Source of the DNA: Candidatus Nanopelagicales bacterium | GTDB lineage: Bacteria; Actinomycetota; Actinomycetes; S36-B12 | DNA: 35,735 bases | Reading direction: 5' to 3' | NCBI GenBank assembly: GCA_030726915.1 | Contig: JANRCR010000005.1 | Span: 1 to 35,735 of the forward strand | Part shown: one piece after another, positions 7,128 to 11,410 of the stretch | Layout of the letters: each line of letters starts with the position of its first letter | How positions within the stretch are numbered: position 1 is the first letter of the stretch | Notes under the pieces: generated by a model | What the model was told of the DNA's origin: nothing | What the model saw: only the letters and a program-made list of their open reading frames with translations | Databases searched by the model: none | Program-made: the position numbers and the translations under genes

Positions 7128-8147
7128 TCAGGTCGCGGCCCGGTGCAGGCGATCCGCGATGGCTTCAGCGATGCCGTGCGCGTCCGGCCCCGGGAGGATC
7201 GCCACGATGAGGGTGATGCCCAGGGTGTCTGCCCGCCGCAGGGCGTCGTAGAGGCCGCGCGCGTAGTCCTCATCATTGGCCACCACGAGCAGCAGCTCAA
7301 CACCCGCCGGAGTGGTGACGCCGACACGACCGATGACACCGATGCACTGCGGATCATGCCCATCCGCGATCGCGGCCTCAATGTCGGCGAGGAGGGATGC
7401 CTCATCGTGGACGAGGGTCACGGTCGCCGCGGGTGCGTAGTGCGTGGGCAGGGCTCCGGGGACCCGGATCCCGGAGGTGCCCGGCTCGAGGGTGGCCAGG
7501 CCCGTGATGAGCTCGATCTGCGCGGTGCTGATGCCGCCGGGTCGTAGCACGCGCGGCTGCGGACCCGTGCAATCCACGATGGTGGATTCGACGCCGATGG
7601 TGCAGGGGCCGCCGTCCATCGCGACGTCATCTGCGGTCAGACGTGCGCTGAGATCATCGAGTGCGTGGGCGAGAGTCGTCGGACTCACGTGGCCAAAGAC
7701 GTTGGCGCTGGGCGCTGCCACCCCGTGGGGTGCACCGGCCGGATCGAGATCGTCCATCGCGCCGATGACGGAGCGGGCGATCGGATGGGCGGGGACCCGC
7801 AGGGCCACCGTGTCCTGACCCCCCGTGATGTCATCCCCCGCGCGCGGTGATCGCGCCAGGACGAGGGTGAGTGGGCCGGGCCACACACCGCTCGCTAGGT
7901 CGCGTGCATAGTCGGGCACGCTGCTCACCCATGCGTTGGGGCCGGTGGTGTCCAGTGCTGCATCGGCATCCGCCACGTGGACGATCACCGGATGCTGGGA
8001 GGGCCGGCCCTTCACGGCATAGATGCGCGCGATGGCCTCCGCATCATCAGCGCGACCGGCCAGGCCATAAACCGTCTCGGTCGGTAGGACGACCAGCGCC
8101 CCATCCAGGAGTGCGGTGGCAGCCACGCGAGGGTCGTCGATGATCAC
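7128..8147 (-). CDS. sua5: L-threonylcarbamoyl-AMP synthase, Sua5 type
   Basis: Makes threonylcarbamoyl-AMP from threonine, bicarbonate and ATP for the t6A37 modification of ANN-decoding tRNAs. The 339-residue length matches the two-domain Sua5 form rather than short TsaC. The YrdC domain (about 1-200) shows L-P-T-E-T-V-Y-G-L near 20-28, K-x-R-P-x-x-x-P-x-I-V-H near 46-57 and A-P-S-A-N in mid-domain, ending with S-T-I-V-D and R-P-G. The rest, about 225-335, is a Sua5 C-terminal domain with G-x-x-x-x-H-Y-A-P linker features. The GTG start at 8147 overlaps the upstream stop as GTGA, so translation is coupled to the upstream gene. Confidence 0.93.
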   Translation of the reverse strand: MIIDDPRVAATALLDGALVVLPTETVYGLAGRADDAEAIARIYAVKGRPSQHPVIVHVADADAALDTTGPNAWVSSVPDYARDLASGVWPGPLTLVLARSPRAGDDITGGQDTVALRVPAHPIARSVIGAMDDLDPAGAPHGVAAPSANVFGHVSPTTLAHALDDLSARLTADDVAMDGGPCTIGVESTIVDCTGPQPRVLRPGGISTAQIELITGLATLEPGTSGIRVPGALPTHYAPAATVTLVHDEASLLADIEAAIADGHDPQCIGVIGRVGVTTPAGVELLLVVANDEDYARGLYDALRRADTLGITLIVAILPGPDAHGIAEAIADRLHRAAT

Positions 8148-9556
8148 TCCTGGCTGCCCGGAGGGGCATGCTGCATGCGGTGTCCGCCGGTGCCAAAAGC
8201 ATCCGGGGGGATCGCTGTGGGAGCGGTGTCTCCCCGCAGGATGGAGTCGATGACCCGGAGATTGAAGGCGCAGTCGGTGATGGCATCGGGATCGTCCGCG
8301 CGCAGGATCTCCGGGATCGCCGCATAGGCATCGCGCGCGGTGATGTAGCGCTGGCGGGCCGACTCGAAGGAGCCCAGATTGCCCAGCAGAGCCGCCGCTT
8401 CATGGGTGCACTCCGCGGCTCGCTCGGGCAGTCCCTCCCGGGTGTAGGTCGCGGCCGCTTCGTCGAGCAGGGCGAGTGCTTCCACCGCCTCGTGCGGATC
8501 ACCGGTGCGTCCGCGGACAATGGCCTCGCCGTGACGGGCATCTGCTGCGCGCACGGCGTCTGGGATGGACTCGGCCACGCGGATGGCGTCGGCAAAGGAG
8601 TCGACGGCCTGCATCGTGTCACCGGCGAGGTCATAGGCCGTGCCCCGCGCTCCGAGCAGATCGGCCTCACTGCCGCGCTCATTGATGGCTCGCGCGGACA
8701 GGAGCGCCTGATCAAGCACCGCAACCGCATCATCGATCCTGCTGCGCTCGGTCAGGCGCCAGGCCAAACCCGGGGCCGCCATGAGGACAGCCGGGTGATC
8801 GTGCGTATCACGGAAGCCGTCGAAGGCGGCGCGCAATGTCGCATCGGCATCGTCGTCGAGGCCCTGGGCGGCGAGTGCGGCACCGAGCACCTGACGTGCC
8901 CGCGCGGTCAGACTGGGATCGTCTTCGGCATCGCGGATGACCATGAGCGCTTCCCGGGTCGCCTCGTCATAGCGACCCTCGTCCACGAGATGGGCGGCGC
9001 GCTCATAGCGCGCCGCACGACGCTGCTCCTCGGGCATCTCGGGGTCGCGCAGGCTGCGGTCGATGGCACCGAGGGCCTCAGCGCCCGCGCCATCAGCGCG
9101 GGCAACCTCGTCGGCGAGGGCATCCAGATTGCGGCGTAGATGGCGTCGGCTGAAGCCACGCACCAGGGGGCGAGCCTCATCGACCGCCACCCGGGCCTCA
9201 CTCCACCGGTGCAATCGGGTCAGCGCCGCCGCACGACCGACCCGTGCCCACGCCTCCAGGGCATCGAGGTCACCCAGATCCTCACCGGCAATGGGCAGGG
9301 ACAGGGACCCACGATGAATCAGGCGCAGCCGCTCATGCTCTCCGTCATCACGCAACATCGTGACGTAGTCGAGTGCGGCATCGATGTCGGTGAGGGCCTC
9401 AGCGGGCCGATCGAGCATCACGAGGGCTTGCGCGGCGATGGTGCGAGCGAGGGCCACCGAATAGGGCTGCCCCTGAGCCTGCGCAGCCTGGGCGCGTGCA
9501 CGCGCGTCAGCAAGCATTGCTTCTGCCTGATCGCGCATGGCCGAGTCATCTGCCAC
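8144..9556 (-). CDS. TPR-like helical repeat protein
   Basis: About 470 residues, almost entirely alpha-helical and Ala/Asp/Arg-rich, with degenerate 34-residue TPR-like units, for example around A-L-V-M-L-D-R-P-A-E-A-L, the Y-E-R-A-A-H-L-V-D-E-G-R-Y-D-E-A unit, and A-A-L-A-A-Q-G-L-D-D-D-A. No enzymatic motif, signal peptide or membrane segment is seen, so it is probably a cytoplasmic scaffold. I chose the GTG at 9556, giving V-A-D-D-S-A-M-R-D-Q; the frame is open to 9628 but that leader looks non-coding. It overlaps the Sua5 gene by 4 bp and is probably co-transcribed with it. Function unknown. Confidence 0.7.
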   Translation of the reverse strand: MADDSAMRDQAEAMLADARARAQAAQAQGQPYSVALARTIAAQALVMLDRPAEALTDIDAALDYVTMLRDDGEHERLRLIHRGSLSLPIAGEDLGDLDALEAWARVGRAAALTRLHRWSEARVAVDEARPLVRGFSRRHLRRNLDALADEVARADGAGAEALGAIDRSLRDPEMPEEQRRAARYERAAHLVDEGRYDEATREALMVIRDAEDDPSLTARARQVLGAALAAQGLDDDADATLRAAFDGFRDTHDHPAVLMAAPGLAWRLTERSRIDDAVAVLDQALLSARAINERGSEADLLGARGTAYDLAGDTMQAVDSFADAIRVAESIPDAVRAADARHGEAIVRGRTGDPHEAVEALALLDEAAATYTREGLPERAAECTHEAAALLGNLGSFESARQRYITARDAYAAIPEILRADDPDAITDCAFNLRVIDSILRGDTAPTAIPPDAFGTGGHRMQHAPPGSQE

Positions 9557-9666
9557 GCATCCACTATGGCGCACGTCACATCGGATGGCGCCGGAAGGGT
9601 GGCCTAGGGGGACATTGCCGACCGCCACGTCATTGCAGGCGAACTCTGCGAATTTTCATAGGTGTG

Positions 9667-9698
9667 TGTCACGTCCGCGACATGTCTACGACATGACA
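9667..9698. promoter_or_regulatory. 32-bp imperfect dyad, candidate operator
   Basis: Dyad centred between 9682 and 9683: outer arms TGTCA (9667-9671) and TGACA (9694-9698), core palindrome GACATGTC (9679-9686). Twelve of 16 positions in the two half-sites match. CGACATG is also repeated at 9678 and 9689 (11-bp period, one helical turn), and CACGTCC/GGACGTG flank it at 9670-9676 and 9700-9706. It lies in the divergent gap between the TPR gene and the small ORF at 9780. Confidence 0.45.
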
Positions 9699-9779
9699 GG
9701 GACGTGGGAGTAGGCGACGATAGACGTGGTCCTACCGGATCAATAACACCGTTGCCCACAAGGCGAACAAGGAGACACC

Positions 9780-9923
9780 GTGAAAAACATTATGTCCTGG
9801 CTACGGCCCCGGCCCGCCAGTCATCCCACCAGCATCCGTCGCACCTGGGATCGCGAGCGTGCGCGGGCGATGTCGCCCTCACATCGCGATGAGATCGACG
9901 CGATCTTCTCCCGCTATCTCTGA
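9780..9923 (+). CDS. Small 47-residue basic protein
   Basis: A short ORF starting at GTG 9780 with AAGGAG seven bases upstream, one of the better ribosome binding sites in the window. It encodes M-K-N-I-M-S-W-L-R-P-R-P-A-S followed by an Arg-rich helix (R-R-T-W-D-R-E-R-A-R-A) and a tail S-P-S-H-R-D-E-I-D-A-I-F-S-R-Y-L. No cysteine, no clear signal peptide and no recognised family. Third positions of its codons are strongly G/C, as in neighbouring real genes. It stands alone: a dyad-rich promoter region upstream and 218 bp before the protease gene. Function unknown. Confidence 0.65.
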   Translation: MKNIMSWLRPRPASHPTSIRRTWDRERARAMSPSHRDEIDAIFSRYL

Positions 9924-10050
9924 CCGCGCCCTGCCCGCCTGGTATGTCGAGAGCCGTGACCGGTCTTGATGACCACGCGGGCGCGCGGTTGGGAGCACCC
10001 AGTGTCAAGATCAGGTAAGGACCTGCTCGGAATCACGCACTCAGGGAACA

Positions 10051-10141: not shown

Positions 10142-11410
10142 GTGACCGAGACCAATCCGGAACGCGATCCGTACGCACCCAATGTGGGTGCGACCGATCC
10201 GTATGCCGCCTACCGCCAGCCCGGCTACAGCTACACCGATCCGTACGCGGTCGATCCCTACGCTGCAGATCCCTATGCGGCGTACAGGACACCCCAGCCG
10301 ACCACCGCGATGCCCGCGCAGCCGCAGCCGCGGTCGGGCCGAGGGGGCACCCTTGCGCTCGCGTCCGTGGGCTTGGCGCTAACCGCACTCGTCGCCGGAT
10401 CCATCGGTGGTGCGGTGGGCTTCACCGCTGCTCGACTCAGCCAGCCCGATGCGGTCACCTCCGTGGTGAGCGTGCCCATTGGCGCGACCGGCGAGCCCAT
10501 CAGTCCTCCCGCGGGTGGCAGCATCGCGGCCGTGGCTGCCGCACTGCAGCCCTCGGTGGTCCAGGTCAATGTGGCGGGCAACGGCGCCGCCGGCACGGGA
10601 TCAGGATTCATCATCCGCGAGGACGGCTACATCCTGACCAACAACCACGTCACGGCGAATGGCAGCGACATCACCGTGACCTTCAACGACGGTCGAACGA
10701 GCAGCGCGCGCCTCATCGGTGACAACCCGGGTTATGACCTCGCCGTCATCAAGGTGGATGAGACAGACCTGCCCGCCGTGACCCTCGGTTCCTCCGGAGC
10801 CCTTCAGGTCGGGGACACCGCGATCGCCCTGGGCTCACCGCTGGGCCTCCAGGGCACCGTCACCTCCGGCATCGTCAGCGCACTCAACCGCCCGGTCACC
10901 GCCGGAGGGCAGGGCGAGTTGGCCTTCATCAATGCCATCCAGACCGATGCGGCCATCAATCCCGGCAACTCCGGCGGACCCTTGGTCGACGGCAACGGCG
11001 CCGTCATCGGCATCAACTCCGCGATTGCATCACTCGGCGTCGGGCAGGGCGGCCAGCCCGGCAGTATCGGCCTCGGCTTCGCGATCCCGATCGACACCGC
11101 GTCACGCATCGCATCAGAGATCATCGCGACGGGTACGTCGGAGACGCCGATCATCGGCGTTAGCCTCGACAGGGGCTTCTCCGGGCCCGGCGCTCGCGTC
11201 GCCGGTGTCACCGATGGTGGCCCCGCCGCCGCGGCCGGACTGCGCGAGGGTGATGTCATCACTCAACTCAACGGCGCCCTGGTCGTGAACTCCACCGATC
11301 TCATCGTCGATGTGCGCTCACTCGCACCGGGTGAGCAGGTCACCCTCACCGTGGAGCGTGACGGCCAAGTGCGCGAGGTCACGCTCGTGCTCGACGCCCA
11401 GGAGAGTTAG
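10142..11410 (+). CDS. HtrA/DegP-like membrane serine protease with PDZ domain
   Basis: Surface quality-control protease of the S1C family, 422 residues. The cytoplasmic N-terminus (about 1-62) is Pro/Tyr-rich with repeated D-P-Y-A units. One membrane segment follows (about 75-100, A-L-A-S-V-G-L-A-L-T-A-L-V-A-G-S). The trypsin-like domain carries His169 (N-N-H-V-T), Asp199 (G-Y-D-L-A-V) and Ser277 (G-N-S-G-G-P-L). A single C-terminal PDZ domain (about 330-420) ends the protein. The topology puts protease and PDZ outside the cell. I chose GTG 10142 because GGAGGAG (10131-10137) precedes it with good spacing; the in-frame upstream ATG at 10094 lies inside the leader hairpin. Length and order match actinobacterial PepD/HtrA proteins. 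Confidence 0.93.
   Translation: MTETNPERDPYAPNVGATDPYAAYRQPGYSYTDPYAVDPYAADPYAAYRTPQPTTAMPAQPQPRSGRGGTLALASVGLALTALVAGSIGGAVGFTAARLSQPDAVTSVVSVPIGATGEPISPPAGGSIAAVAAALQPSVVQVNVAGNGAAGTGSGFIIREDGYILTNNHVTANGSDITVTFNDGRTSSARLIGDNPGYDLAVIKVDETDLPAVTLGSSGALQVGDTAIALGSPLGLQGTVTSGIVSALNRPVTAGGQGELAFINAIQTDAAINPGNSGGPLVDGNGAVIGINSAIASLGVGQGGQPGSIGLGFAIPIDTASRIASEIIATGTSETPIIGVSLDRGFSGPGARVAGVTDGGPAAAAGLREGDVITQLNGALVVNSTDLIVDVRSLAPGEQVTLTVERDGQVREVTLVLDAQES

Follow-up and report, generated by a model that had tools for sequence, protein, structure and literature searches.

The locus and its small gene

The window, by which we mean the whole stretch of 35,735 nucleotides that was analysed (contig JANRCR010000005.1 of a Candidatus Nanopelagicales bacterium), contains a small open reading frame with an upstream region of its own. 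It lies between a divergent TPR-repeat gene and a gene for an HtrA-type protease. The features of this part of the window are the following:

8144..9553, minus strand: divergent TPR-repeat gene (Pfam TPR_12), flanking and outside the unit; its true start is uncertain
9565..9580, no strand assigned: doubtful CRP-like match TATGGCGCACGTCACA, 8 of 10 positions
9575..9998 (edges approximate), no strand assigned: insertion between the TPR and HtrA genes, which holds the small gene
9670..9706, no strand assigned: nested dyad, CACGTCC...GGACGTG (9670-9676/9700-9706) around CATGT-ctacg-ACATG (9681-9695)
9752..9766, plus strand: leader hairpin TTGCC-CACAA-GGCGA with the pentaloop CACAA
9769..9774, plus strand: Shine-Dalgarno sequence AAGGAG
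9780..9923, plus strand: coding sequence of the 47-residue protein, GTG start and TGA stop; conserved in relatives, dN/dS about 0.09
9825..9866, plus strand: codons of predicted helix 1 (residues 16-29, with the invariant W23 and R27; AlphaFold2)
9876..9908, plus strand: codons of predicted helix 2 (residues 33-43, with E38-I39-D40-A41-I42-F43 and its invariant columns; AlphaFold2)
10142..11410, plus strand: flanking HtrA/DegP-type protease gene with a PDZ domain (Pfam Trypsin_2, PDZ_2) and its own upstream region

A sequence-only reading of this DNA had proposed that the frame at 9780-9923 encodes an overlooked, conserved small protein rather than a chance product. The frame begins with GTG at 9780, ends with TGA at 9923 and has no internal stop; its first codons are A/T-rich (AAA AAC ATT ATG) and 35 of its 47 codons end in G or C (counted by hand), in agreement with that reading. 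AAGGAG is present upstream of the GTG as well, but the spacing is 5 nt and not the 7 nt given there. The dyad that had been noticed upstream is also found, in the form of the nested dyad centred at 9688 and the leader hairpin.

Evidence for a gene comes from its relatives. The encoded protein is 85% and 83% identical to its counterparts in the two nearest species with the gene (G002, E 3.3e-22; G007, E 7.7e-22). The 34 and 33 base differences to these two relatives fall mostly on third codon positions (8/4/22 and 6/5/22 for positions 1/2/3) and change only 9 and 8 residues. Random placement of the differences gave means of 21.2 and 20.7 residue changes, and none of 2000 draws was as low as the observed values. 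Correspondingly, pS was 0.65 and pN 0.11-0.12. The sequence-only reading had named loss of the frame in close relatives, or an excess of non-synonymous change, as evidence against its proposal. Neither was found, since the frame is conserved in close relatives and the change is overwhelmingly synonymous. A chance ORF is thus ruled out by the conservation of the frame and by far fewer residue changes than expected. Judged by this pattern of substitution, by conservation throughout a protein family and by the Shine-Dalgarno-like match before the chosen start in most relatives, the ORF is a genuine gene under purifying selection.

The genome encodes a second member of the same family (G000:C4:36380-36493), which is 50% identical to the window protein. 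Within the genus this second type (B copy) occurs in 10 of 11 genomes, the window type (A copy) in three, and in all three the A copy has the same neighbours, the divergent TPR gene and the HtrA-type protease gene. In four congeners (G003, G004, G006, G008) only a short space separates the TPR gene from the HtrA gene; the HtrA upstream element is present in it and the small gene is absent. These are four of the seven genomes that could be compared; the TPR gene (query 8144-9553) had no match in the other four members of the genus. This short, gene-free space in four congeners shows that the A copy lies within inserted DNA of about 430 bp, at roughly 9575-9998. By this comparison, the window copy is an additional, second copy, inserted between the TPR and HtrA genes.

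A small-protein family in bacteria and phages

Reading the fetched loci yielded 70 distinct family members, and 75 once more loci were added. Most are 42-55 residues long; the N-terminus varies, and the 30 residues at the C-terminus are conserved. In a 38-row alignment W23, R27, A30, E38, I39, D40 and F43 are invariant; the most conserved part is the C-terminal E-I-D-A-I-F-S-R (family pattern E-I-D-A-I-F-x-R). Conserved cysteines were not seen in the family alignments.

The family is present in 74 of the 85 genomes of the window's own bacterial family. Eleven genomes, including all four of genus g11, have no copy, and the gene is therefore not essential throughout the family. A search of the whole order matched 81 of 166 genomes, seven of these in a second family (f7) of Ca. 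Nanopelagicales; the order name was taken from the titles of matching records, and the other titles are those of aquatic actinobacteria. In samples of the class and the phylum, 18 of 394 genomes (every one from the window's order) and one of 296 (the window's own genome) matched, counts that may miss distant members as the first pass scored only some candidates per genome. The same scans, inspected for fusions or outside relatives, gave only weak short matches, mostly within long frames, which we take as chance. Some genomes of other genera have second, diverged family members (L169, L170, L172, L174, L175, L176). The family was also found in several metagenome bins titled Bifidobacterium breve (e.g. 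L088, L089, L094, L097, L099, L104), titles that are probably wrong.

The window protein had no match in Pfam up to E 10, in NCBIfam up to E 1 or in PHROGs up to E 0.1, and the other members reached at best E 0.015 against the three collections. A sequence search of the PDB gave nothing useful (one entry at E 0.81), and none of the papers searched mentions a small protein together with Nanopelagicales. From its sequence relationships, the 47-residue ORF thus belongs to an undescribed small-protein family that is near universal in the bacterial family of Ca. Nanopelagicales to which the window belongs.

For the window protein, AlphaFold2 with a 55-row alignment predicted helices at residues 16-29 and 33-43, with a block pLDDT of 96-98 over residues 21-40; residues 1-15 were of low confidence and are not amphipathic. 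In a canonical 55-residue member the predicted helices span residues 6-37 and 41-54, the first 20 residues again with low confidence. The core of the family is thus confidently predicted to be a helical hairpin that carries the invariant W-x3-R and E-I-D-A-I-F-x-R positions. A Foldseek comparison with solved folds and predicted viral folds found none at E 0.001 or better (best E 0.5), for which a two-helix hairpin is too short to allow a firm test. The basic helix followed by an acidic-aromatic C-terminus, to which the sequence-only reading had pointed, is borne out in its EIDAIF core, and the conserved part consists of the two helices. The charge is not conserved: the net charge of the host members ranges from -7 to +5. 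With such variation, nucleic-acid binding, when deduced from charge, is unsupported.

Apart from the shared site of the A copies, a conserved operon partner was not found, and the neighbours differ from genus to genus. These comparisons of gene order show that each family copy stands alone, outside any conserved operon. A TPP riboswitch at L012:23-134 (minus strand), near the family member of G016, seems unrelated.

The family is not confined to cellular genomes. The sequence-only reading had not foreseen copies in phages, nor the paralogue, the operator or the structured leader. A scan of IMG/VR found it in 53 viral loci, on stretches of 34-60% GC; an ORF with a start could be read in 52 of them, corresponding to 33 distinct proteins, many of which are close relatives. 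The terminase large subunit (TerL) was present in 10 of 12 phage records tested and a WhiB gene in 13 of 16, and on these grounds we regard the viral contigs as actinophages. Genes near the phage copies include terminase, dCMP deaminase, glycosyltransferases and the major head protein; four proteins of locus L203 that were compared with PHROG had no match. Taken together, these gene contents indicate that the family is carried by tailed phages of actinobacteria. Among the isolated phages of INPHARED, tblastn found no matching record.

In a 107-row tree the A copies join the phage copies L199 and L203 (support 90/88), apart from the B copies (99/100, the deepest fork drawn). With 55 columns and 33 of 104 inner branches open, this tree is weak, and so is the grouping of the window copy with a phage sequence; a single origin of the phage copies is compatible with it. 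A stretch of 67 bases at the gene's 3' end agrees between L203 and L026 in 62 positions, by a count of mismatches made by eye. The phage copies seem to be under weaker selection where it could be measured, with pN/pS of roughly 0.16-0.5 in pairs with at least eight synonymous changes.

Signals in the upstream region

The CRP/GlxR regulators recognize the consensus TGTGAN6TCACA and are linked to cAMP. After thinning by similarity of 73 usable host upstream regions to 51, a match to this consensus in at least 9 of 10 positions was found in 22 of the 51 host and 19 of the 33 phage regions. Shuffles, which preserve base composition only, gave 0.2 each, and as a real-sequence background the remainder of the same phage loci, 171 kb, contained just five such sites. 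In all 19 phage copies with the site, its position relative to the start codon is -82 to -88. Among 31 listed phage copies, 30 have it 38 or 43 nt ahead of a TGATA-type -10 element; in L211 the distance is 11, by way of another match. The genome of the window itself encodes a CRP-type factor, at G000:C44:12578-12799. The family as a whole thus shows what marks a CRP regulon, a putative site before the promoter, and other members have no match this good. The window copy's own site is doubtful, since the left half of it falls within the conserved element upstream of the TPR gene. Similar control signals often precede the gene in bacteria and in phages; this suggests that the viruses have taken over a switch of importance to the bacterium.

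Further dyads were seen in these regions. TTTGT-N7-14-ACAAA was found ahead of 17 of the 51 host genes and 5 of the 33 phage genes (0.03 and 0.13 after shuffling) and seems to overlap the promoter spacer. A palindrome around GCAAGATCTTGC, which presumably resembles LacI-type sites, stands ahead of the promoter in several genera (L046, L049, L052, L076, L084, L086, L087, L115 and others) and may be another operator. Palindromes of the form ATACCCCC/GGGGTAT, which we take to be like CsoR-type operators, occur upstream in L050, L051, L055, L056, L102, L111, L116 and L128; they probably serve the neighbour, and in L050 and L051 they adjoin a rhodanese/metallo-beta-lactamase gene.

The second type of signal is a hairpin in the leader. 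A hairpin with a 5-nt loop is present in 38 of 51 host leaders, compared with 18.2 in dinucleotide shuffles (maximum 26), and the loops AGACC, ACACC, CACAA or CACGA occur in 19 host leaders, compared with 0.1 (maximum 2). The same preference appears when words are counted without selection for pairing: 17 of 34 A[GC]ACC words and 8 of 30 CACAA words in leaders are flanked by at least four pairs, compared with 3% and 2% of such words in all loci. Among 29 aligned hairpins, six of the seven pairs show changes of both partners in at least one row. The covariation score was 0.410, compared with 0.128 for shuffled and at most 0.144 for slid alignments; the rows had been picked for pairing (at least three inner pairs, score of at least 9), which biases the comparison towards structure. 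Three of the 32 hairpins listed were left out of this count, namely L215 and L219, which are promoter dyads, and the doubtful L061. In 26 of 51 host leaders the Shine-Dalgarno sequence itself lies within a second hairpin, GGAG-N5-CTCC, immediately ahead of the start codon. The window leader has the CACAA form, with the counterpart GCCGCC-CACAA-GGCGG(C/T) in L026 and L027, and the second hairpin is missing. The same kind of pentaloop hairpin occurs in three phage leaders (L228, L230, L231). Rfam gave no match at the leader.

Possible function and known parallels

A possible interpretation, to which we give an even chance, is that the family is a small protein-binding regulator that is swapped between these bacteria and their phages, works by docking of its two helices and is controlled by a CRP-family factor and the leader. 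The two-helix core would dock on a conserved host protein and alter its activity, in analogy to the WhiB and Lsr2 regulators of other actinophages. Expression would answer to the carbon or cAMP state through the CRP-family factor, with an additional contribution of the leader hairpins. Phages would carry the small protein to steer the host, and the window copy may have come from such a phage or gone to one. A fusion of the family protein to a larger protein, or a binding partner, was not found; as these and a conserved operon are lacking, the docking on a host protein is what we infer. In a more specific and clearly more tentative version, a host regulator of two helices and about 50 residues under CRP-family control was taken up by several actinophage lineages together with a host-type control region, so that infection reads the carbon state of the host, and the window would hold such a unit, moved into the chromosome as a second copy.

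Of 34 phage loci scanned, 21 have tRNA genes no more than about 3 kb away from the small gene; in L203 they lie directly upstream. This could point to a small factor that associates with ribosomes or tRNA and that, in phages, accompanies the tRNA genes. However, tRNA clusters are common in large phages, host neighbourhoods show no such link (host tRNAs were outside that scan) and the net charge is not consistently positive, so that we consider a role in translation unlikely. The scattered genomic context, the carriage by phages and the insertion in the window would also fit a gene that serves phage fitness (by superinfection exclusion, by anti-defence or as an antitoxin) and was domesticated by the bacteria. 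Yet nearly every genome of the family retains a copy under selection, more like a housekeeping regulator, and no recurrent paired gene adjoins it; such an origin seems improbable to us to a similar degree. A third idea starts from the N-terminus: residues 2-14 have a high hydrophobic moment in the long host members (median z 1.9) and in the phage members (2.0), and an N-terminal amphipathic helix might anchor the protein in the membrane, leaving the C-terminal hairpin to inhibit a carbon-controlled transporter or enzyme. The CRP-like operator would suit this, but the window copy and the short copies of the genus have no N-terminal amphipathic helix, and we give the idea no better prospects than the preceding two. 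That the peptide is secondary and the leader hairpins, with their conserved loops and covarying stems, are the functional element of a mainly regulatory RNA is very improbable in view of the strong selection on the amino-acid sequence and the missing Rfam match.

The protein-binding regulator, our preferred reading, has parallels in several known systems. As a conserved small ORF it resembles the conserved but unannotated metagenomic smORFs gathered in the GMSC small-protein catalogue (PMC11364881). Its resemblance to the CRP/GlxR regulon genes lies in the TGTGAN6TCACA-like operator upstream of the promoter in many family members; for the window copy, whose best match is 8 of 10, such an operator is doubtful. 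Phage morons, too, are a likely comparison. A moron is by definition a gene in a phage genome with a promoter and a terminator of its own. Like a moron, the small gene stands alone in unlike genomic surroundings with its own promoter-like elements, at fixed spacing, but a terminator-like site follows only 3 of 32 phage copies, and in this respect the small gene falls short of a moron.

A further parallel is provided by the WhiB-like and Lsr2-type regulators that actinobacteriophages share with their hosts, as described in three reports (PMC8612146; PMC10202952; PMC6802176). Here as there, a host-type regulator gene would be found on actinophages: homologues of the small gene lie in tailed-phage contigs with hallmark genes, as expected of a host gene on actinophages, and most of the tested records have WhiB besides. 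The small protein differs in that it is far smaller, has neither a sequence relation to these regulators that we could find nor a Pfam match, lacks conserved cysteines and is limited to two families of one order. The Nanopelagicales, freshwater and marine, are abundant aquatic bacteria, and the effects of their phages are little known. That nearly all members of one family keep a tiny protein which actinophages carry too, behind conserved control signals, suggests a host function that is of value to a phage, and like whiB its gene might help to identify the hosts of metagenomic phages.
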